In this document: positions 21,282 through 30,876 of the stretch, one piece after another
Layout of the letters: every line of letters starts with the position of its first letter
How positions within the stretch are numbered: the stretch's first letter is position 1
From: Planctomycetota bacterium
GTDB taxonomy: Bacteria; Planctomycetota; Phycisphaerae; WQYP01
Reading direction: 5' to 3'
Length of the DNA stretch: 49,082 nucleotides
NCBI GenBank assembly: GCA_021805985.1
Contig: JAJZDN010000024.1
Span: forward strand, 1-49,082
Position numbers and translations under genes: made by a program
Notes under the pieces: generated by a model
The model's database searches: none
What the model saw: the letters and a program-made list of their open reading frames with translations, nothing else
Told to the model about the DNA's origin: nothing

Positions 21282-22256
21282 TTACTGTTGCGTAATGGAT
21301 GGCCGATACAAGCTGGTGCTGAAGGCTTTTTTATATTCCGTCCAGGTGGAATCTTCAGTAGGGGCGGCGACCGCATCCAAGGCCATTTGTGTTTTTGCAT
21401 CCAGGTTGTCAATGAGATTCACCAGAATGGCTTCGGGGGTTTTGGGCAGAACGGCGGCACCAAACTCCGGCAACCCATGATGCGAAAGAATAATGTGCTG
21501 CAAGACCATCAACAGGTCCTGCCGAAACGGCCGCCCCTGTTTTTCTGATAATGCCGCCGCCCGCTGATTAATCCACAGCGTTCCCAGGGCAATGTGGCCC
21601 ACGAGCTTACCCATATCCGTGTAATCAAACATGAACTCATAAGAAAGTTCCGCGGTTTTTCCAATGTCATGCAGAAACAGCCCCGCGAGAATCAGGTCCT
21701 GGTCAATATCCGGATAGCGTGGGCAGATCACCACTGACAATTCCAGCAAGCTTAGCGTATGTTCCAGCAAACCGCCCAGCCAGGCGTGGTGCATGGATTG
21801 CGCTGCCGGGGCAACGCTGAACCGCGTCATAAATTCTTTATCATCAAGGAAGCTGTTAACCAGTGCCACAAGGTCTTTGTCTTTAATGGCGGATAGTATT
21901 TCCCGAAGTCTGGCGACCATGGTCGGAATATTTTTCTGGGTTTTTTTAATAAAGTGTCCCAAGTCCAGCTTATTGGTGTCTGTAATTGGAGCAATGCTTT
22001 CAGCCACCAGTTGCAGGTGGCCCTGATAACTTTCAACGCGTCCCCGTACGTGAACAAATCCTTTGGCAGGAAGTTTTTCATAAACATCCTTGGATATATT
22101 CCACATACGGCAATGCACTTCGCCCGTGGCGTCCGCGCACGTGGCCTTAAGGTACAGCTTGTTGCTGACGGTATTACCCATCTGTTTGCCGGAGATCAGA
22201 AAAGGCTGATCAATCACATCCCCCTCACGCATTTGTGCTACACCAATTCTGGCCAT
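21282..22256 (-). CDS. YhaM-like 3'-5' exoribonuclease (OB-fold plus HD domain)
   Basis: Members degrade or trim single-stranded RNA or DNA from the 3' end using a metal-dependent HD phosphohydrolase. The 324-residue protein has an N-terminal OB-fold nucleic-acid-binding domain (about 10-95: YLKATCADATGEVHCRMW, VHVRGRVESYQGHLQL). The HD domain follows with HHAWLGGLLEHT, the signature LFLHDIGKTAEL (H196-D197) and ILSHHG near the C-terminus. Length and domain order match YhaM-type proteins. It is divergent from the DUF2959-like gene and independent of the GH genes. Confidence 0.88.
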   Translation of the reverse strand: MARIGVAQMREGDVIDQPFLISGKQMGNTVSNKLYLKATCADATGEVHCRMWNISKDVYEKLPAKGFVHVRGRVESYQGHLQLVAESIAPITDTNKLDLGHFIKKTQKNIPTMVARLREILSAIKDKDLVALVNSFLDDKEFMTRFSVAPAAQSMHHAWLGGLLEHTLSLLELSVVICPRYPDIDQDLILAGLFLHDIGKTAELSYEFMFDYTDMGKLVGHIALGTLWINQRAAALSEKQGRPFRQDLLMVLQHIILSHHGLPEFGAAVLPKTPEAILVNLIDNLDAKTQMALDAVAAPTEDSTWTEYKKAFSTSLYRPSITQQ

Positions 22257-22370
22257 GATATTTTTAACTCCTGCCGAACAATTCCATTAACACAACCAAG
22301 AAGGTAAGCGATTTAGTGATCATAAACAACTCGGCGGCAGCAAAAATCAGAACACCACCGTGAAAGCAAC

Positions 22371-22399
22371 TTGCCTTTTTGAAAATTCTTTGCTACAAA
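22371..22399 (+). promoter_or_regulatory. Candidate promoter of the DUF2959-like gene
   Basis: TTGCCT (22371-22376), a 17-nt spacer and TACAAA (22394-22399) lie about 70 nt before the ATG at 22472. The match is moderate. Confidence 0.35.
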
Positions 22400-22471
22400 C
22401 GCTTTAGAGAGACAAACTGACGCTTCGCGGCTTGGCGTAACGGGCCGCTGACTAACTTCGGAGACACTTTC

Positions 22472-23125
22472 ATGACGTTTCACAAGATGAGCATCGCCAC
22501 CGCGTTGACATTGTTGATGGCACTTCCGGCTCTTAACGGATGCTCGCACTTGCCTTACCAAAGTGCGCAAAGCATCAGTGGTCATTCCATGAGCGTGCAA
22601 AAAAACGGGTTGAACGTTGCCGCTCGTGTTGACAGTACGATGGGTGCCCTGAACACCTTGCTTAACAAGCCATCGGGATCACTTGCCAATGATTATAAGA
22701 GCTTCAGCAACAAATTCAGTTCATTAAAAAGCGGCTATGCGGATCTTAAGGGTGCAATAAGCAATGTCAGTGGTAACCAGGGAAAATATATGGCAACGTG
22801 GGACAAACAGATCCAAAGCATCAGCAATTCGAACATTCAGGCAGTGGCTAAGTCCAATTACTCCAATGCCCAGACGGATTTTTCCCGGTTTACTACCCGT
22901 GCCAAAACCACCGAGAGTTCCGGCGGGGCGCTGATGGCTTACCTGGGCAATATGAAAAAGTATCTCGCCACGGATCTAAGCGCCAGCGGAATTCAGGGCG
23001 CTTCGGGGCTTTTGGGAAAGGCGAAATCACGAGCGGCAACATTCAAACATAATTTAGCCAAGCTTGATAGCGACGCCTCCCGGCTTTCCAATGATTTGAA
23101 ACCCGCGGCGGGAACCAGTAATTAG
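22472..23125 (+). CDS. DUF2959-like lipoprotein
   Basis: 217 residues. An N-terminal lipoprotein signal ends in LPALNGCS, giving a lipidated cysteine near residue 23. The body is predicted mainly helical/coiled-coil: RVDSTMGALNTLLNKPSGSL, KFSSLKSGYADLKGAI, TWDKQIQSISNSNIQ, LGNMKKYLATDLSA, KLDSDASRLSNDL. The pattern of a W-x-x-x-I-x-S-I-x-N segment and a late YLATDL segment is reminiscent of DUF2959, whose function is unknown. A GGAG lies 8 nt before the ATG. It is followed after 36 bp by hpt, so the two may share a transcript. Confidence 0.6.
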   Translation: MTFHKMSIATALTLLMALPALNGCSHLPYQSAQSISGHSMSVQKNGLNVAARVDSTMGALNTLLNKPSGSLANDYKSFSNKFSSLKSGYADLKGAISNVSGNQGKYMATWDKQIQSISNSNIQAVAKSNYSNAQTDFSRFTTRAKTTESSGGALMAYLGNMKKYLATDLSASGIQGASGLLGKAKSRAATFKHNLAKLDSDASRLSNDLKPAAGTSN

Positions 23126-23161
23126 ACAACAGCACCAAAATAATTTCCCGATTGGCGTGCG

Positions 23162-23776
23162 GTGATCAAATTCGGATGCGTGGGTATTTGTCCTATGCAG
23201 ACCCGTGCGGTTATTCTGGGCGATATGTACAACGCTGATATTGACCGCATCCTCCTGACGCATACCGCCATCGCACGGCGCGTTGGAAAAATTGCGCGCG
23301 ACATTGCCGCCACTTACGGAAATCGTGAAGTTGTTATTGTGCCGGTATTGACGGGATCCATGATCTTCATGGCTGACCTGATACGCCGGCTCCCGCTGAA
23401 AATGCGGGTTGATGTGGTAGCAGTTTCGAGCTATCCCAATGAGAGCACGACCAGCCGCGGTGCCTTGATCACCTTTCGCGGATCGCTGCCCGTCCGGGGG
23501 CGCGAGGTATTAATTATCGATGACATATTAGAAAGCGGCCAGAGCCTGGCGGCGGTGGCGCAGCTGATGCGGCGGCGTGGTGCAAAATCTGTAAAGACCT
23601 GCGCCCTGCTGCGCAAGCCGCAGGCGATTGAAAAAGGCCTGGCGGCCGACTTCATGGGCTTTGACATTCCGGATGAATTCGTCGTGGGGTATGGCATGGA
23701 CTACAATCATTACTACCGAAATCTTCCGTACATCGCGGTATTAAAAGCCAAGGCATTTTTTTCTTTGCCGCTGTAA
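23162..23776 (+). CDS. hpt: Hypoxanthine phosphoribosyltransferase
   Basis: Purine salvage enzyme converting hypoxanthine (and guanine) plus PRPP to IMP/GMP. The type I PRTase fold shows VPVLTGSMIFMADLIRRL, SSYPNESTTSRG in the flexible loop, the PRPP-binding signature VLIIDDILESGQSL, and C-terminal LLRKPQAIEKGLAADFMGFDIPDEFVVGYGMDYN typical of Hpt. The open frame begins with GTG at 23162. ATG at 23195 or 23225 would give a more usual 183-193-residue protein, and none of the three has a convincing ribosome site. Confidence 0.93.
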   Translation: MIKFGCVGICPMQTRAVILGDMYNADIDRILLTHTAIARRVGKIARDIAATYGNREVVIVPVLTGSMIFMADLIRRLPLKMRVDVVAVSSYPNESTTSRGALITFRGSLPVRGREVLIIDDILESGQSLAAVAQLMRRRGAKSVKTCALLRKPQAIEKGLAADFMGFDIPDEFVVGYGMDYNHYYRNLPYIAVLKAKAFFSLPL

Positions 23777-23842
23777 CGTTAGATAATTTAATGACTTATA
23801 ATCGATTCTGGCATCTCAAAACACAGGATTTCCGGATTATTC

Positions 23843-23871
23843 TTGACTTTTTATCGGAGCCGATGTATATA
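23843..23871 (+). promoter_or_regulatory. Strong candidate promoter of the PEP-CTERM cluster
   Basis: TTGACT (23843-23848), exactly 17 nt of spacer, and TATATA (23866-23871). The first gene with a credible start is at 24227, so the transcript would have a leader of about 350 nt. Confidence 0.55.
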
Positions 23872-23877
23872 GATGCT

Positions 23878-24226
23878 TGACCTTTCCAGAGCAGCTCAGC
23901 GTTGGAGAGATCGGAACGTCGGATAAGCTTAAAAGCTTACGGGCTTTTAGACTCATGTCTCGAAGTTCTAGAATTGTGTAGTTGTAAAAAATTGAATAGT
24001 TGTTCGACTGACCGCAGGGATGGGGTCATGTTTTCGCGTTGCGCAGAAACATGGAGCAGAAGATTTGCAAACAGGACGTCAGTAATTTTTCATCGGTCAA
24101 TGGCTTTGGAAATCAGCGATTGATCCGTGATCCGTGATCATTGAGCACCGCGAACAGCGTTCTGGCTCCGATGATTCGGTGCCGCCGATTTGCGGTGCAT
24201 AGAAGTCTGTTATGGGAGTAGCACAT
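23878..24226 (+). other. Long 5' leader with competing hairpins
   Basis: About 350 nt without a credible gene; the 73-codon frame at 23902 has no family features. TAAGCTTAAAAGCTTA (23924-23939) is a perfect 7-bp stem. It overlaps and excludes a second stem, AAAAGC (23931-23936) with GCTTTT (23943-23948). The leader ends with the hairpin motif at 24164-24183. TGATCCG repeats occur at about 24121-24135. Confidence 0.35.
24164..24183 (+). promoter_or_regulatory. Conserved upstream hairpin of PEP-CTERM genes, copy 1
   Basis: GGCTCCGATGATTCGGTGCC is 8-bp stem-like with one mismatch around TGAT. It is enclosed by a second stem, CACCGC/GCGGTG. It ends 43 nt before the ATG at 24227. Copies 2 and 3 are at 25286 and 26184 at nearly the same distance from their own starts. 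Confidence 0.6.
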
Positions 24227-25102
24227 ATGTACAAGACGAAATCTTATCGTGGTGGTGTGTTGGCGGCGGCCGTGGCCGCAGTGACTCTAGTATCCGCAGC
24301 CCAGGCGGCTTCAGTTTCTAACGCTTACGCAGATTATGGTCATGCCACTAATAACACGGGCGGATTTTGTGCTGCAACTTCTATTGCGAATTCATTGCAG
24401 TTCTTAGCAAATGAAAATCCCGGGGTGTACGGATCGACCGGCTTAATTGATGGAAATGCCTCTACGACGCGTGACGATATCGTAGCAATTGAAAGTCAGG
24501 AAACGATTACGCCCAGCACCGGTCCCGCTTACCAGGCACCCACCGATAATGAAACGATCTGGAACAGCATGGTCGATTACATCGGGGCTAAGGCTCCTGA
24601 CACCACCTCGTTTGCGGCACAGTTCGACCCCGGTTCCTTCAGCGCGACAGGGGGATACGCGTACGCCACAGACATCCAAAATACAATTCCCACCTTAACT
24701 TTTCTCTACGATCAGCTTGCCGCTGGAGCGGGTGTCGAGATCGGTTTCATTGGCCAAGCACCCTTAAATGTGGATGGATCACTCGATTATAATAATCAAA
24801 CGGCACATATGGTTACACTAACCGGAGTTAACAGCACTACCGGTGCCATGACTTATCTTGATCCTAATGCTCCTTCGTCATTAATCGATACACTCCTCAC
24901 CGTTGACGGAAACGGGTACTTGTCTTTCTATTGGAATAACGGCGGCAACCCAGGTGAGCAAGTTGCAATAAACGAAGTGTGGGCCGAGAGTGCTATTACG
25001 CCGATACCCTCCGCCCTTTCGTTGTCGGCACTGGGGATCCTTGGTTTGGGGGGCTTGGCGCTGGCGCGGCGCAAATACTTGCGGCCCAGCCAGCTGTTTT
25101 GA
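24227..25102 (+). CDS. PEP-CTERM protein with papain/C39-like cysteine peptidase pattern
   Basis: The ATG at 24227 is chosen because GGGAG lies 8 nt upstream; the ATG five codons earlier overlaps that site. The 291-residue product has a signal peptide (GGVLAAAVAAVTLVSAAQA). A possible catalytic set follows: Cys48 in GGFCAATSIAN, His194 in TAHMVTLTGV and Asp212 in YLDPN, in the order of papain-fold C39-like peptidases. The sorting tail is TPIPSALSLSALGILGLGGLALARR plus KYLR, a PEP-CTERM variant. Export by Sec and exosortase processing are inferred from the tail. Peptidase activity is an inference from spacing only. It is first of four PEP-CTERM genes on this strand. Confidence 0.75.
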   Translation: MYKTKSYRGGVLAAAVAAVTLVSAAQAASVSNAYADYGHATNNTGGFCAATSIANSLQFLANENPGVYGSTGLIDGNASTTRDDIVAIESQETITPSTGPAYQAPTDNETIWNSMVDYIGAKAPDTTSFAAQFDPGSFSATGGYAYATDIQNTIPTLTFLYDQLAAGAGVEIGFIGQAPLNVDGSLDYNNQTAHMVTLTGVNSTTGAMTYLDPNAPSSLIDTLLTVDGNGYLSFYWNNGGNPGEQVAINEVWAESAITPIPSALSLSALGILGLGGLALARRKYLRPSQLF

Positions 25103-25148
25103 TCCCCCGTCGCCACGCCACAAAACAAGCGGGAGCGCCGGAAAACGA

Positions 25149-25256
25149 AAAGTGGAGCACGAGAGGTGCAGAGAGGGAGTAAAGTGGCGGCGGGCGGACA
25201 CGCTCGCCGCCATAATGAGGGAGCGGCAGCCTGCATCAGGATGCGGGCGAATATTG
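25149..25256. repeat. Intergenic repeat S, copy 1
   Basis: 108 bp starting AAAGTGGAGCACGAG and ending GAATATTG. It aligns over its whole length with 26051-26157, sharing GGCGGCGGGCGGACACGC and TAATGAGGG. It is followed 29 nt later by hairpin copy 2. It lies outside any convincing gene. Confidence 0.7.
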
Positions 25257-25285
25257 ACCAATACGGCACCATGAACTGGCGATGT

Positions 25286-25305
25286 AGCTCAGATCATTCG
25301 GGGCC
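25286..25305 (+). promoter_or_regulatory. Conserved upstream hairpin of PEP-CTERM genes, copy 2 (diverged)
   Basis: AGCTCAGATCATTCGGGGCC matches the other two copies at about 15-16 of 20 positions. The stem itself is weaker here. It ends 42 nt before the ATG at 25348. Confidence 0.5.
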
Positions 25306-25347
25306 ACCATTCACTTGGGTCGAGTTTCTTGAGAAAGGAAACATACA

Positions 25348-26118
25348 ATGGGTAAGATCGAACGCTTTCACCTTGTTACTGCCTCGGCAGCCGCCGCATT
25401 GGCCTTGGGGATTTTCGCGGCTCTGCCTGCACCGGCCTACGGCTCGGAAACCGCCAGTGCCACCATTGCTCTGGCATCTAGCTCGATTGTCGGCGGCCAG
25501 ACGCAATACACGTATGACCTTTCCCTGACCAACACCAGCACCGACGGCAGCACTGTGGGCACATTCTGGTTTGCATGGATCCCCCACCAGAGCTATCTGG
25601 CCTCCAATCCCATTACAGTATCGGCCCCCACCGGCTGGGAGAACGGACCTGATTCACAAAGCGTGGGCGGAGCCTTTGGAGAAAAGGGTGCCTCCATTGA
25701 ATTTCAAGCTAGCAGTTCGAGCAATTATCTTACCGCCGGAACTACCCTGACGGGCTTTTCCTTTACCACATCTGATGCGCCAAATTCCGTATTCGGCAAC
25801 TCCAAGTATTTCCCCGGAACGCCGGTGCTGACCTCGCAGGTTTATCACGCCGGCCCCTTCAGCGATACGTTTAACGGACCCAATGGATACCAGTTCCTGG
25901 TGCAAGTGGTGCCCGAACCCGCATCTGTGGCTCTGATGGGCGTAGGTGCCGGAGTCTTGTTGCTGATAGGACGAAAAAGGCGGCAAACGTCCGATTCCAA
26001 AATATTGAAGTCAAACAGTGACCGAGTACGGGCGCGGATGGGAGGTTTGAAAAGTGGAGCAACAGGGGTCGCAGAGATTGGGCAAAGCGGCGGCGGGCGG
26101 ACACGCCCGCTGCCGTAA
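25348..26118 (+). CDS. PEP-CTERM protein with C-terminal extension
   Basis: The 256-residue product has a signal peptide (VTASAAAALALGIFAALPAPAYG) and a beta-rich Ser/Thr/Gly body without recognised catalytic motifs. The canonical tail is VVPEPASVALMGVGAGVLLLIGRKRRQ. Unusually, about 43 further residues follow the basic cluster (from TSDSKILK to RTRPLP). Most of these are encoded by intergenic repeat copy 2 (26051-26157). PEP-CTERM proteins normally end just after the basic cluster, so this tail is probably read-through caused by loss of the original stop. AAAGGAAA lies 8 nt before the ATG. Confidence 0.8.
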   Translation: MGKIERFHLVTASAAAALALGIFAALPAPAYGSETASATIALASSSIVGGQTQYTYDLSLTNTSTDGSTVGTFWFAWIPHQSYLASNPITVSAPTGWENGPDSQSVGGAFGEKGASIEFQASSSSNYLTAGTTLTGFSFTTSDAPNSVFGNSKYFPGTPVLTSQVYHAGPFSDTFNGPNGYQFLVQVVPEPASVALMGVGAGVLLLIGRKRRQTSDSKILKSNSDRVRARMGGLKSGATGVAEIGQSGGGRTRPLP

Positions 26119-26157
26119 TGAGGGGGCGAAGTGGGGCCGCAAGGGTGCGGAAGATTG
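26051..26157. repeat. Intergenic repeat S, copy 2
   Basis: 107 bp aligning with 25149-25256. Its first 68 bases are in frame with, and translated as, the tail of the preceding PEP-CTERM gene. It is followed 26 nt later by hairpin copy 3. Confidence 0.7.
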
Positions 26158-26183
26158 TCGATGGCGCCGCCAACCGGTGTTCT

Positions 26184-26203
26184 GGCTCCGATGATTCGGA
26201 GCC
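26184..26203 (+). promoter_or_regulatory. Conserved upstream hairpin of PEP-CTERM genes, copy 3 (perfect)
   Basis: GGCTCCGATGATTCGGAGCC is a perfect 8-bp stem with TGAT loop. It is enclosed by AACCGG/CCGGTT. It ends 44 nt before the ATG at 26248. Confidence 0.65.
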
Positions 26204-26247
26204 GCCGGTTAGCGGAGGTGGCAAACATTTTTCTGGGAGGACGAACG

Positions 26248-27342
26248 ATGCGAAACGCACAATCAAGGATGGGCTTATGTTGGACCATGGCAATATCCGC
26301 CGCGATTATGGGTGGCTTGATGGGCGTAATCAACCACGCCGCGGCCATCGGCCCAAACGACCAGTTTCTTCCCGACGCGCCTAATCCGTTAAGCTTGGGT
26401 TCTGTGGGTTACGTTGCGGGAATAGGCACTGGAACTGTGATTTCCGCAAAAGTCAGCGGCAATCAGGGGTTGATTACGATACTGACGGCCAACCACGTCG
26501 CCAAAGACGCGACCGGAGGCGTTTTTGATATTGGCGCAAAGGCTCCCTTCTCCGCAGCGTTTAATATTATGGGTTTGCAAACCTACACGCTTGTCGATCC
26601 GCTAAACAATCCTACCAATCTTCCCGAGGATGTTTCTGTGATGGAGGGCATCGACACGCAAAACGTAAATGCTGGGGCACCGCAACAAATATTCAATTTA
26701 CTTAGCGCAAATGTTGCCACAGTCACCAACCCGGGGGCCGGCAATGGGCCGTTTGCGGGAGGCTCGGTGTTAAATCCGGTTGGTTTCACACAAGTCGGAT
26801 ACGGACTGCAAGGTCAGTTCAGCGCGAATGCCGGCGGACCTAACATTCCGGGGTACGTTTCCACAGGCGCTCTTGGCCAGCGGCTTTTTCAAAACAATGG
26901 TGTTGTTGCCTATACGGCACCGACCACGAAGGGCGATTATTTTGAACCGCTCGTGAGTTTTACCTATTCAGCGCCTGACGCCTTTGGGCAGGGCGCGGCG
27001 TTTGCTGGGGATTCCGGCAGCCCCTATTTCACCGCAGGCGCGGCTGGGGCGCTCACCATCACAAGCACCGCGGACGGGCGACAGGGCCAAACCGTACCTA
27101 TCGACTTCAGCAATGGCATTTCGGCGGTCCATGTCCTGGGAAGCAGTTTTAATGGCGGAAATTTGAAGCTGGTTGGCGGAGGGTATGGCGGGCAGGGAGT
27201 TCCCATCACGCCGGGGTTGTACAACTGGCTTCAACCTTTCATTCTAAATCCAGCCACAGCTGCACCCGAACCGGCCGCGCTGGCCCTGATGGGCATTGGC
27301 GGTGCAGCTCTGCTGCTGGTTCGGCGACGGCGAAAGATCTGA
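26248..27342 (+). CDS. PEP-CTERM trypsin-like serine protease
   Basis: Predicted secreted, cell-surface-sorted S1-type peptidase. I chose the ATG at 26248 (GGGAGG about 8 nt upstream); the ORF is open upstream but enters repeat DNA. The 364-residue product has a signal helix (MAISAAIMGGLMGVINHAAA). The catalytic triad is in trypsin order: His83 in LTANHVAKD, Asp128 in PEDVSVM, Ser256 in AGDSGSPYF. The sorting tail is AAPEPAALALMGIGGAALLLVRRRRK. The His motif lacks the usual Cys of TAAHC, as in many bacterial members. Together with the Cys-peptidase-like neighbour it makes a two-protease surface cluster; substrates are unknown. Confidence 0.85.
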   Translation: MRNAQSRMGLCWTMAISAAIMGGLMGVINHAAAIGPNDQFLPDAPNPLSLGSVGYVAGIGTGTVISAKVSGNQGLITILTANHVAKDATGGVFDIGAKAPFSAAFNIMGLQTYTLVDPLNNPTNLPEDVSVMEGIDTQNVNAGAPQQIFNLLSANVATVTNPGAGNGPFAGGSVLNPVGFTQVGYGLQGQFSANAGGPNIPGYVSTGALGQRLFQNNGVVAYTAPTTKGDYFEPLVSFTYSAPDAFGQGAAFAGDSGSPYFTAGAAGALTITSTADGRQGQTVPIDFSNGISAVHVLGSSFNGGNLKLVGGGYGGQGVPITPGLYNWLQPFILNPATAAPEPAALALMGIGGAALLLVRRRRKI

Positions 27343-27464
27343 TCAGACTGACCGGCGGTTTGGCCGATGGTCGCGGGTGAGGCTCGGGTGTACCGCGTTA
27401 TAGGAATTGAGTCTTTTTCGGGAGATTTTTTATGTTCGCTTCAAAGTTTTAATGGCAAGCCGGT

Positions 27465-28277
27465 ATGGCGTCGGGAGCATTGTTAGCCGGAGCGGTAATT
27501 GGCACCCCGCACTGTTTTGGCACGTTTGCCTCGTCCGCCAGTTATTACGCTTTTCAATTCACCAACGGTACCAGCAGTTCACAGGACAGCGTCAACTTGG
27601 TGCTCTCCGGCGACCAGAGCGCCAGCAATTTTGGCCTGTCCGGGGCTTATGAAAACTCCCTCGGCACCAGTTCCTCCGCCAACTATGCAAGCGGTAGCAC
27701 CACCATTGCCTTCACCGGCTCGTCCGTGAGCGGTAGCGGCACGGCCACCGCCACCGTCGGCTTTGGTTGGAAAGGGCTTCTGGCCCCGGACATCACCGGC
27801 GCATACTGGGGAAACGGAAGCACAGACACTTCTATTTCACCGCTACCGTTGACAGCGTCCCCGCCGTCGAACCTTTCGGATCCCTGGACGGTTATCACTT
27901 ATGATGTCTCGTCTAATGGCTCGCCGGGCACCCGATATTGGTTTGAGGAGCAATTTACCAATGGCTCCAATCCGCAATTAGATCTCACATACAGTAATTA
28001 CGGCCGCGGAGCGCTTTCCGACGTTGGTTATTTCATTTCAGATAGCCTGATCCCTTTAGACCAACTGAACTACCCCGATGAACCGCCGCCGGGTGCAACC
28101 AACTCCCCCTTTACTGCGCTACCGACCTTGGATGGCCAGAGCATTTCCGGCACTGGCAGCCTCAATTTCACGCTCCCATTACCCATTCCCTCGCCCCTGG
28201 CACTGGCTGGCGTTGGCGCCATTGGCTTGCTGGCGGTCCATCAATTGCGCAAACGCCGGCGCGGCGATGCCATTTGA
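27465..28277 (+). CDS. PEP-CTERM-like protein with disrupted N-terminus
   Basis: The 270-residue open frame has a Ser/Gly/Thr-rich beta-type body and a sorting tail LPLPIPSPLALAGVGAIGLLAVHQLRKRRRG. The start is anomalous. The only good ribosome site (GGGAG, 7-8 nt spacing) serves an ATG at 27432 in the same frame, but TAA at 27450-27452 ends that frame after six codons (MFASKF). The next in-frame ATG, 27465, gives MASGALLAGAVIG, which lacks the usual basic N-terminus. Options are a nonsense mutation in the signal peptide, reinitiation after a six-codon leader, or a base error. No copy of the upstream hairpin shared by the three preceding genes is recognisable. Confidence 0.65.
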   Translation: MASGALLAGAVIGTPHCFGTFASSASYYAFQFTNGTSSSQDSVNLVLSGDQSASNFGLSGAYENSLGTSSSANYASGSTTIAFTGSSVSGSGTATATVGFGWKGLLAPDITGAYWGNGSTDTSISPLPLTASPPSNLSDPWTVITYDVSSNGSPGTRYWFEEQFTNGSNPQLDLTYSNYGRGALSDVGYFISDSLIPLDQLNYPDEPPPGATNSPFTALPTLDGQSISGTGSLNFTLPLPIPSPLALAGVGAIGLLAVHQLRKRRRGDAI

Positions 28278-28462
28278 AGATCCCGGGCATGCGACCCAAG
28301 AGTCGAAAGTGATTTGCCGGTGGTTTTCGATCGCGAAAATGCGGGAGCACCCGGTTAAAAATGGGATTGCCACCCGAGGTGGTGCTGCATTTTGTTGGGC
28401 GGTTGGTATCACGGGCGCCGCGCCCGAACGCAGGCAATTCCCCAACCGCAAAATGGGCAATT

Positions 28463-28486
28463 AGCTCAATGCGGCAGCGTTGAGCT
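28463..28486. repeat. Hairpin repeat, family 2, copy B, in a 336-bp gene-free gap
   Basis: AGCTCAATGC-GGCA-GCGTTGAGCT forms a 10-bp stem with one G-T pair and the same tetraloop as the copy at 21219. It lies between the convergent PEP-CTERM and PDZ genes (28278-28613). Flanking GCAAAAT (about 28449) and ATTTTGC (about 28519) could extend the structure. No gene is visible in this gap. Confidence 0.55.
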
Positions 28487-28613
28487 GGATGCGAAGCGTG
28501 GTTGAGTGACGCAAGACATTTTGCCCCGTGGCGTTTGATTCGACGTTTTACCCCTTGGAGTAGCGTTTCTTGGTGTCCGAATCCCACATTGCATCGGCCC
28601 ATACATCGTACCA

Positions 28614-29570
28614 CTATTTGGCTGACGCCCGAGGCGCACATTTCACCGCCTGGGCTTCCAGAGACTTTTCCTGTAATTGCAAATTATGAATCATCGCTTT
28701 TACTTCTGTCAGGCGTTGCTGGATCAGCATGTACCGTGAGGAGGTTGGCGTTATGGATTGGCTGTGACTTTGCAATATCAGCCGCGCTACCGCCTGGACC
28801 GGAGGAGGCAGCCGATCCAGGCGGTTGGGCTGAATGTTGTAAGCGTGGCTTCGCCATAAAATTTGCAGATGCCTTCCGCCGCGTGGACCGATGTACTGGC
28901 GCAACGTAAATAAGTCGGGATGACCCATCATGCCCGCATGCGGTATAGCGGCAGCGGGCATGTGAAGTCTTACGCCCGGCCCGATGGTCATAACACTGGT
29001 GGCTTGAATATGATTAGGCGATCCGGTGCCTGACGGTAACGCACCGACAGGCGCCAGACGCCGGTTGAAAAGAAATACCAGATGATGCGGACGATTGACC
29101 GGTGTAAGCGTAACAGCTTTCCGCACACCGGCGCGAATCAACGTGATGTTCAGCGCCGGTGCCTTGGAGCCGGGTCGATTCTCCGCACGAATAAGCTCAA
29201 ACGGATTCTCCAGGGCGTGACCATTAAGCGTAATGAGAAGATCACCCGGTTGCACATGGGCCTTAAACGCCGGACTGTTGGGAATTACCTGCAGGACCAT
29301 AAGCCCCTGTTGAGGTTTAAGCCCCAATAAATGGCTAAATATCGGGGGAATTTTTCCCATCGCCACGCCCAGCCAGCGCGGAGATTGGGCCGCCGGTGCG
29401 GCAACAGAACTTGTCGCCGAAGCGGCGGCCGCCGTGGTGGAGGTATCCTCGGCGGCCGCACGCACGGCATTTGGGCACCTTACTGTCGCGAAGCCAGAGG
29501 CGATCGCGATGGCGACAAGAAGTTTTAATGTTGGGCCATTGACCATGATATTTTCACTACTTATAGCCAT
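28614..29570 (-). CDS. Secreted or periplasmic PDZ-domain protein
   Basis: The 318-residue protein has an N-terminal signal segment (TLKLLVAIAIASGFATV) and a low-complexity Ala/Thr/Ser linker. One PDZ domain follows (about 65-160: RWLGVAMGKIPP, QQGLMVLQVIPNSPAFKAHVQPGDLLITLNGHAL). A proline-rich middle and a C-terminal coiled coil (RLTEVKAMIHNLQLQEKSLEAQ) complete it. No protease triad is present, so it is a PDZ adaptor rather than an HtrA enzyme. Its start abuts the stop of the anti-sigma gene (shared base 29570). It is the third gene of the ECF operon, suggesting a periplasmic sensor or modulator for that switch. Confidence 0.8.
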   Translation of the reverse strand: MAISSENIMVNGPTLKLLVAIAIASGFATVRCPNAVRAAAEDTSTTAAAASATSSVAAPAAQSPRWLGVAMGKIPPIFSHLLGLKPQQGLMVLQVIPNSPAFKAHVQPGDLLITLNGHALENPFELIRAENRPGSKAPALNITLIRAGVRKAVTLTPVNRPHHLVFLFNRRLAPVGALPSGTGSPNHIQATSVMTIGPGVRLHMPAAAIPHAGMMGHPDLFTLRQYIGPRGGRHLQILWRSHAYNIQPNRLDRLPPPVQAVARLILQSHSQSITPTSSRYMLIQQRLTEVKAMIHNLQLQEKSLEAQAVKCAPRASAK

Positions 29571-30208
29571 TAATAAATGGTCTGTTTCTTACCATTCACC
29601 GGTACAACCGGATAAGCCATCACGTTATTGGGGCCTTCCGGCACCAGCACAATATGGTTCGCCTCCGAGTAGGCTGTGGTGCGAACATTTGAAGGGTTAT
29701 ACGACGGGCTGAAAGACGGCGATTCCTGCGTGCCAAAGCCCGGCGGAAGTCCCGGTGTAATATATTGGATGGCGCCCTGCGGGGGCTGTGTTGCTGACGG
29801 CGCGACCGCAACCTGCGGACTGCCGGCACCTGCCGGTCCTGTTTGTACCATTCCGTTACCGCCTCGGCCAAGATACAACCCCCCGGCTCCAAAAATCCCG
29901 GCTGTTATCATCACCAACGCGGCCACGCGCACCCAATCAATGCGGTAAATAGTCGCAGGCCGCGCCGCCGGTCGGACGTCAAGCATATCCCGCACCGCCC
30001 GGCGTTCCACCTGCCGGGCTAAAAAGTGCAGCGACAAACTTCGCCAGGCGTCTGGGTTGCGGTCAATGGATTCAAGCAAGGCCCGTCGCCGATCCTCGGG
30101 CAGTTCGTCATCGACAAGCATATCCATAGCCAAGTCCGAATCCTGCGGCCCGGTTACCCGCCCCAACGGGCCGTGCGGATCATCAGCGTGTGAGAAAAAA
30201 AGTGCCAT
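29570..30208 (-). CDS. Putative membrane anti-sigma factor
   Basis: I place the start at the second methionine (30208; GGAG 10 nt upstream), giving 212 residues. The N-terminal cytoplasmic part has an anti-sigma-like pattern: MDMLVDDELPEDRRRALLESIDRNPDAWRSLSLHFLARQVERR. One membrane helix follows (about VRVAALVMITAGIFGAGGLYLG), and then a Pro/Gly/Gln-rich extracytoplasmic tail. There is no HX3CX2C zinc motif, so it would belong to the non-zinc class. The call rests mainly on position directly after an ECF sigma gene and on topology. Confidence 0.7.
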   Translation of the reverse strand: MALFFSHADDPHGPLGRVTGPQDSDLAMDMLVDDELPEDRRRALLESIDRNPDAWRSLSLHFLARQVERRAVRDMLDVRPAARPATIYRIDWVRVAALVMITAGIFGAGGLYLGRGGNGMVQTGPAGAGSPQVAVAPSATQPPQGAIQYITPGLPPGFGTQESPSFSPSYNPSNVRTTAYSEANHIVLVPEGPNNVMAYPVVPVNGKKQTIY

Positions 30209-30262
30209 TTTGTTTTTACTCCGTCTCTGCACAAGAACATCCATCCATTTCAATCAACCTTT

Positions 30263-30838
30263 TCAATCCACTGTCCGGGCCGCCAGAAGCTGTCGCAATT
30301 TCTGGCGCGCCCGAAACAGCCGCATTTCCACAACCGCCGGCGTTACGCCCATACGGGCGGCGATTTCCTTATAGCTACAATCATCTACATGTTTCATCAT
30401 CAGCATTTCCGTATCCCGTGAGGGCAATCGGGCCATCGCCTGCCGCAGCATCGCGGCACGTTCTGAACTTAACAGAACTTCCAGCGGATCAGGCGGCCGG
30501 GAAGCGTCCGACCGCATCACCGCCACTTCCGACGCCTGGGCAATTCGCTTGCGTGCTCTACCCAAAGATCGCCGGTGCATCAGGGCCGCCCGCACAGTCA
30601 GGCGATACAGCCACGGCTTGGCATTGCTCTGCGAATGCAGGGTGGACCAATTCTTGACAGCCGCGGCCGCCACTTCCTGCATCACATCATCCGCGCCCTG
30701 CGTAGTTTTGAGCCGGGCCACCGCGACGGCCCGCAACCATGTTCCATACAGGCGCAAGGCCTCCGTCGGTGTCGCCGGCACAATAGCCAGCGTCTCACTG
30801 CCTGCCCCTGTTACTGAATTGGCTAAGCGGGATTCCAT
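30263..30838 (-). CDS. ECF-family RNA polymerase sigma factor
   Basis: Sigma factor with region 2 (WLRAVAVARLKTTQGADDVMQEVAAAAVKNW, then KPWLYRLTVRAALMHRR) and region 4 (LSSERAAMLRQAMARLPSRDTEMLMMKHVDDCSYKEIAARMGVTPAVVEMRLFRARQKLRQLL), the usual two-domain ECF build. I choose ATG 30838, which has AGGAGG about 10 nt upstream. A TTG three codons earlier lies too close to that site. It is followed by a membrane protein of anti-sigma type and a PDZ protein, so it probably answers an envelope signal. An ECF-like promoter lies about 40 bp upstream of the ATG. Confidence 0.9.
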   Translation of the reverse strand: MESRLANSVTGAGSETLAIVPATPTEALRLYGTWLRAVAVARLKTTQGADDVMQEVAAAAVKNWSTLHSQSNAKPWLYRLTVRAALMHRRSLGRARKRIAQASEVAVMRSDASRPPDPLEVLLSSERAAMLRQAMARLPSRDTEMLMMKHVDDCSYKEIAARMGVTPAVVEMRLFRARQKLRQLLAARTVD

Positions 30839-30876
30839 TCGCCGCAAACCTCCTTCCGAAAACCCGGTCTTCTATT

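Follow-up and report, generated by a model that had tools for sequence, protein, structure and literature searches.

Why should the same short palindrome stand before successive genes whose proteins have unrelated bodies? The question is raised by a 49,082-nt contig of a Planctomycetota bacterium (the window, i.e., the whole stretch of DNA that was analysed), in which the first-pass annotation reported a 20-nt motif upstream of three consecutive PEP-CTERM genes. We know of no account of how Planctomycetota control their very large PEP-CTERM surface-protein sets. The sole conserved upstream site of PEP-CTERM genes that was found described in the literature is proteobacterial and sigma-54 based (PMC1569441). 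About 80 PEP-CTERM genes and two genes for exosortase (PF09721) are present in the host genome (4.68 Mb in 197 contigs). The hairpin formed by the motif is real, exceeds chance and is linked to PEP-CTERM genes, yet it is narrower in reach than first thought. The genes in the array probably share it as a switch or stabiliser, and together with its putative promoter and gene array it constitutes a defined candidate system in one genus of uncultured Planctomycetota, open to experiment.

The features of the array are listed in Table 1. A scan of the window finds GGCTCCGATGATTCGGAGCC exactly in copy 3 and with one mismatch in copy 1, and these are the only two sites at up to three mismatches, where shuffled sequences lead one to expect 0.01. 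The counterpart in copy 2, AGCTCAGATCATTCGGGGCC, has four mismatches, reaches only 12 bits with the covariance model and folds differently from copies 1 and 3; the view that there are three equal copies is not supported. Its orthologue in the congener G007 (L169, about 2045–2100) is better preserved and identifies copy 2 as a diverged member of the hairpin family. The distances from the end of the motif to the ATG (43, 42 and 44 nt for copies 1, 2 and 3) were measured exactly as claimed.

Table 1. Features of the gene array and its upstream region (window positions unless a locus is named).
Feature	Position	Strand	Remarks
Conserved, putative sigma-70-like promoter CTTGACTTTTTATCGGAGCCGATGTATATAGAT	23842–23874	+	Near-invariant 17-nt spacer
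Promoter-like copies	Window 23842–23874; L176:191, L169:460, L170:3033, L171:2696, L172 (- strand), L198:4383, L199, L200, L201
Conserved leader, promoter to copy 1	23872–24144	+	~270 nt; internal hairpin CATGTTTTCGCG..GCAGAAACATG
Element copy 1, compound stem-loop	24145–24198	+	Apical hairpin 24164–24183; 28 nt before ATG 24227
Shine-Dalgarno-like GGGAG	24214–24218	+	15 nt after outer stem of copy 1
Gene 1, secreted protein	24227–25102	+	Weak C39-peptidase-like match (E 0.035); P-x-P variant of PEP-CTERM tail
13-bp GC-rich hairpin after gene 1	25184–25213	+	Intergenic, no T run
Element copy 2, diverged, without the family fold	25265–25319	+	Apical part 25286–25305; 28 nt before ATG 25348
Gene 2, PEP-CTERM protein	25348–26118	+	TIGR02595 23.5 bits; frame continues into intergenic repeat
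13-bp GC-rich hairpin after gene 2	26087–26116	+	Intergenic, no T run
Element copy 3, compound stem-loop	26164–26218	+	Apical hairpin 26184–26203; 29 nt before ATG 26248
Gene 3, PEP-CTERM protein	26248–27342	+	TIGR02595 24.1 bits; G005 orthologue has its own element

In the whole genome, four sites match at up to three mismatches: the two in the window, one on contig C48 at a distance of 43 nt from the PEP-CTERM gene that follows it, and one on C134 with three mismatches, inside an apparent coding region. No further convincing copy was found in the upstream regions of all 80 PEP-CTERM genes. The element is thus borne by three of about 80 such genes (four with the diverged copy), and across the genus 11 strong copies compare with 451 PEP-CTERM matches. 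The proposal that it serves sorted surface proteins at large fails on these counts, and a general PEP-CTERM operator is rejected, nearly all 80 upstream regions being without the element.

At up to two mismatches, five of the seven congeners have one match each, four of these lying 43–44 nt before a PEP-CTERM ATG, and reversed-pattern controls at two mismatches gave zero matches in the genus. The match in G004:C145 (GGCTCCGATTTTTCGGTGCC, two mismatches) does not precede a PEP-CTERM gene and was excluded from the covariance model. This model, trained on seven copies, detects 11 strong copies in five of the eight genomes of the genus, including four from outside the training set (G007:C6:783, G007:C6:6527, G007:C10:9301 and G006:C190:2993; E 3.6e-7 to 2.8e-10). 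All 11 have the sense orientation, and their outer stem ends 24–29 nt before an ATG (28–29 nt in ten, 24 nt in one), and a PEP-CTERM tail or its P-x-P variant is present in each of the nine downstream proteins that can be read, the other two being cut by contig ends. The hits are therefore not scattered, as they would be for an ordinary repeat. A short GC-rich palindrome in several copies may recall a dispersed repeat (REP or MITE-like) lying near these genes by accident; this is hardly credible for three strong copies in 4.7 Mb, all in sense and at a fixed start distance, and the scattered intergenic copies that mark REP and other dispersed palindromes are contradicted by the genome-wide scans.

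Outside the genus, a search of 60 genomes of the class with the covariance model, later widened to about 290, gave nothing convincing. A model match in G009 (E 0.004) has no PEP-CTERM link, and family- and class-level matches at two mismatches (L115–L121) do not precede PEP-CTERM genes; both were set aside. The exact pattern has 11 scattered matches in named genomes, of which JAKBCC010000139.1 (Planctomycetota isolate ZJ5.bin40, same genus) is the sole confirmed true copy and the remaining ten fall in unrelated phyla. A search of viral contigs for the pattern gave none. Rfam has no match above gathering score in 22000–29000; the better of two weak matches nearby, Acido-1 RNA (RF01686; minus strand, 22.7 bits, E 0.52), is far below its gathering score of 50, at chance level, and is rejected. 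Literature searches found no description of this stem-loop element.

The element comprises about 54 nt, with a lower stem of about GCACCGCAA/UUGCGGUGC, a mid part having a short CGG/CCG stem and a 5' bulge around GUUCU, and an apical hairpin of conserved sequence, GGCUCCGA-loop-UCGGAGCC. Its 3' end lies about 15 nt 5' of the Shine-Dalgarno sequence. The apical loop is UGAU (4 nt) in most copies and AAGUU (5 nt) in G007:C10 and G006:C190, where the stem is kept. Standard pairs occupy 86.6% of pair cells vs 26–47% when partners are slid, a difference that arises partly by construction, and G-U cells outnumber A-C cells by 16 to 8 (p=0.076). Folding is more stable than expected in five of the seven training copies (z -3.4 to -4.8); for the copies of G005, G006a, G006b, G007b and G007c the gain over shuffles is small or absent, and in G005 and G006a apical pairs are broken by single-base changes. 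Over the apical 20 nt identity is 90%, compared with 70–77% at third codon positions (two orthologue pairs; Fisher p=0.024). Conservation is lopsided, the 5' GUUCU side being kept and the mirror side not. The first-pass annotation saw compensatory change in the outer stems of copies 1 and 3; the stems do exist, but they pair in different registers, and covariation equals that of shuffles. With seven sequences 374 of 500 shuffles are as high as the observed value, and with 11 sequences 155 of 500, the few sequences giving this comparison low power; double changes in the pairs of the element are likewise not in excess over shuffles. Of two marks of an RNA 5'-UTR cis-element, a conserved position relative to the ribosome-binding site and start is thus present, and covariation beyond chance is not seen at this low power.

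All three downstream genes had been taken for PEP-CTERM genes, which is borne out for genes 2 and 3, both passing TIGR02595 (cut-off 16 bits). Gene 1 has no match to TIGR02595 and ends in ITPIPSALSLSALGILGLGGLALARRK, a P-x-P variant. The three bodies are indeed unrelated, but the earlier argument from this against duplication does not carry over to the 5' ends: in copy 1, C48 and several congeners the common stretch includes about the first 30 nt of the gene, which code for roughly M-x-K-x-K-S-Y-R-G-G. A 5' cassette has thus been duplicated. Partial 5' duplication contributed to the spread of the element, and conservation is in part due to descent. The arrays illustrate how unlike surface-protein bodies are attached to a common 5' cassette.

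The main rival to a functional element follows from the same observation, namely that 5' ends of genes were repeatedly duplicated in part and fused to new bodies, with the hairpin as an inert passenger. The homology of copy 1 to C48, G007 and G006 members extends through the element and ends about 30 nt into the gene, bodies past this stretch being unrelated or far more diverged, and an inert cassette would also suit the confinement to one genus, the lack of covariation above shuffles and the existence of array genes without the hairpin. It explains less well why the element is common to copy 3, its G005 counterpart and G006a, which do not have the start codons that the other members share, why spacing stays within 1 nt in ten of 11 copies despite differing spacer sequence, and why changes are fewer in the apical part than at third codon positions. 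We regard this rival as unlikely, albeit one to be taken seriously. As to the array genes without the hairpin, the first genes of G006:C31 and G005:C65 have the same start context. In G006:C31 (L172), in G005:C65 (L198) and at about 1600 of L175, a leader end of the form TGATCCAAT..GTGATC..CGCAC replaces the hairpin; genes with this leader end agree with the others in ribosome-binding site and resemble them in their first codons.

Upstream of the array is a putative promoter of the pattern TTGACT-17-TATATA. CTTGACTTTTTATCGGAGCCGATGTATATAGAT occurs in 10 copies, spread over six of the eight genomes in the genus, and 20 other genomes gave no copy. A simple sigma-70 scan missed it because the scan accepts a -10 hexamer only if its last base is T. 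The internal genes of the array have the element, and no promoter of their own is recognisable at the scan threshold. In G004:C124 and G002:C136 the promoter-like sequence adjoins an rdgB-like gene. The promoter spacer contains a ATCGGAGCCGAT dyad and the 9-mer ATCGGAGCC, which is the reverse complement of the hairpin arm GGCTCCGAT and which in the window is confined to the spacer and, in the other orientation, to both strong hairpins. This distribution and the near-invariance of the spacer would suit a DNA operator, in which the palindrome binds a dimeric regulator that would also bind ATCGGAGCCGAT in the shared promoter spacer. Such an operator, the second rival, is decidedly unlikely: the distance between the arms shifts by one base in two copies, conservation is not mirrored between the two sides, and internal copies are without a recognisable promoter nearby. 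The sharing of ATCGGAGCC between promoter and hairpin was moreover noticed post hoc and may be due to chance. A combined scheme can be imagined, in which a modular, genus-specific expression system built on a portable 5' cassette serves exchangeable exosortase substrates, and a single regulator controls an array of unlike surface proteins both on DNA and on RNA, through a half-site common to the promoter operator ATCGGAGCCGAT and the leader stem-loop; it is a speculation that we consider improbable.

The leader between promoter and copy 1 is long, conserved and structured (z -2.5). A part of it, 23958–24139, and its counterparts form a conserved stretch of about 180 nt that has its own hairpin CATGTTTTCGCGTTGCGCAGAAACATG and a few double-sided pair changes. 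A leader of this kind might let the element work as a terminator, attenuator or translational switch by alternating with another fold, a reading that is very unlikely, as a terminator-like T run does not directly follow the hairpin, internal genes bear the element without this leader, and a look for conserved alternative pairing that involves the ribosome-binding site gave none.

The 13-bp GC-rich hairpins trail several array genes and are also found, likewise with no T run, at L169 1861–1944, L174 3675–3755 and L172 5000–5076. Their loop is mostly GACA, and the two in the window differ at one pair on both sides (T-A vs C-G). Taken together, the arrays are, by sequence comparison, genus-specific and share a presumptive promoter with an invariant spacer, a leader of about 270 nt and GC-rich intergenic hairpins.

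The reading that we prefer, tentatively and at close to even odds, is that of a 5'-UTR stem-loop acting on the mRNA stability or translation of each cistron. An RNA element is favoured because it is near the ribosome-binding site, in sense orientation and at a spacing that is held, and because loop length varies and internal genes without a recognisable promoter bear it; a change of the loop from 4 to 5 nt with the stem kept is awkward for a DNA dyad of fixed spacing. The element would act on the RNA of each cistron, leaving the ribosome-binding site free and marking or protecting the 5' side of each reading frame, and the GC-rich hairpins after the preceding genes would protect the upstream cistrons. 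In this way several unlike surface proteins could be made in coordination from few promoters. Transcription of the element, for which the promoter-like sequence at 23842 speaks, its folding in vivo and its action on stability or translation are all inferred.

Stem-loops of the ompA type, located in the 5'-UTR upstream of a free Shine-Dalgarno sequence, stabilise mRNA. The element described here likewise precedes a free Shine-Dalgarno sequence; it differs from the ompA type in being repeated before several cistrons of one array and in its conserved primary sequence. Processed operons of the puf or pap type have intercistronic hairpins, similar to the GC-rich hairpins between co-oriented cistrons here, where polycistronic transcription and processing are putative.

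In Proteobacteria, the PrsK/PrsR site consists of a 17-nt activator motif ending in TTTACA and a -24/-12 sigma-54 promoter with GG at -24 and GC at -12, lies on average 71 nt from the start, and precedes 99 of 167 PEP-CTERM genes of that phylum (Haft et al., 2006, PMC1569441). Further PEP-CTERM regulatory motifs were expected to be found (PMC1569441). The two systems have in common a conserved cis-sequence before PEP-CTERM genes with unlike bodies, which in the case of PrsK/PrsR is thought to be co-regulatory. In contrast to that site, the stem-loop adjoins the ribosome-binding site with the sigma-70-like promoter far upstream, and it belongs to few genes of one genus outside the Proteobacteria. 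A sigma-54 GG/GC motif in register was not seen in the conserved upstream DNA of the arrays (compared by eye with PMC1569441). Membership among PrsR sigma-54 cis-sites is rejected, given the TTGACT-17-TATATA pattern upstream and the small fraction of PEP-CTERM genes preceded by the element.

The array is flanked by hprT and by a group of PDZ, anti-sigma-like and ECF-sigma genes, and this gene order recurs in part in G005, G006 and G007. The PDZ-domain protein, unassigned anti-sigma-like protein and ECF sigma factor are encoded at 28614–30847 (- strand), adjoining the array; in G005, too, the gene for the PDZ protein stands beside the array together with its neighbour. In gene 2 (25984–26118) the stop after the PEP-CTERM signal seems to have been lost, adding about 44 residues from the intergenic repeat; in the G007 orthologue a stop follows the signal closely. 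A fourth gene has a good Shine-Dalgarno sequence before its ATG at 27432, and an in-frame TAA follows at 27450; its listed frame restarts at 27465, inside an apparent signal peptide, and the gene may be a pseudogene.
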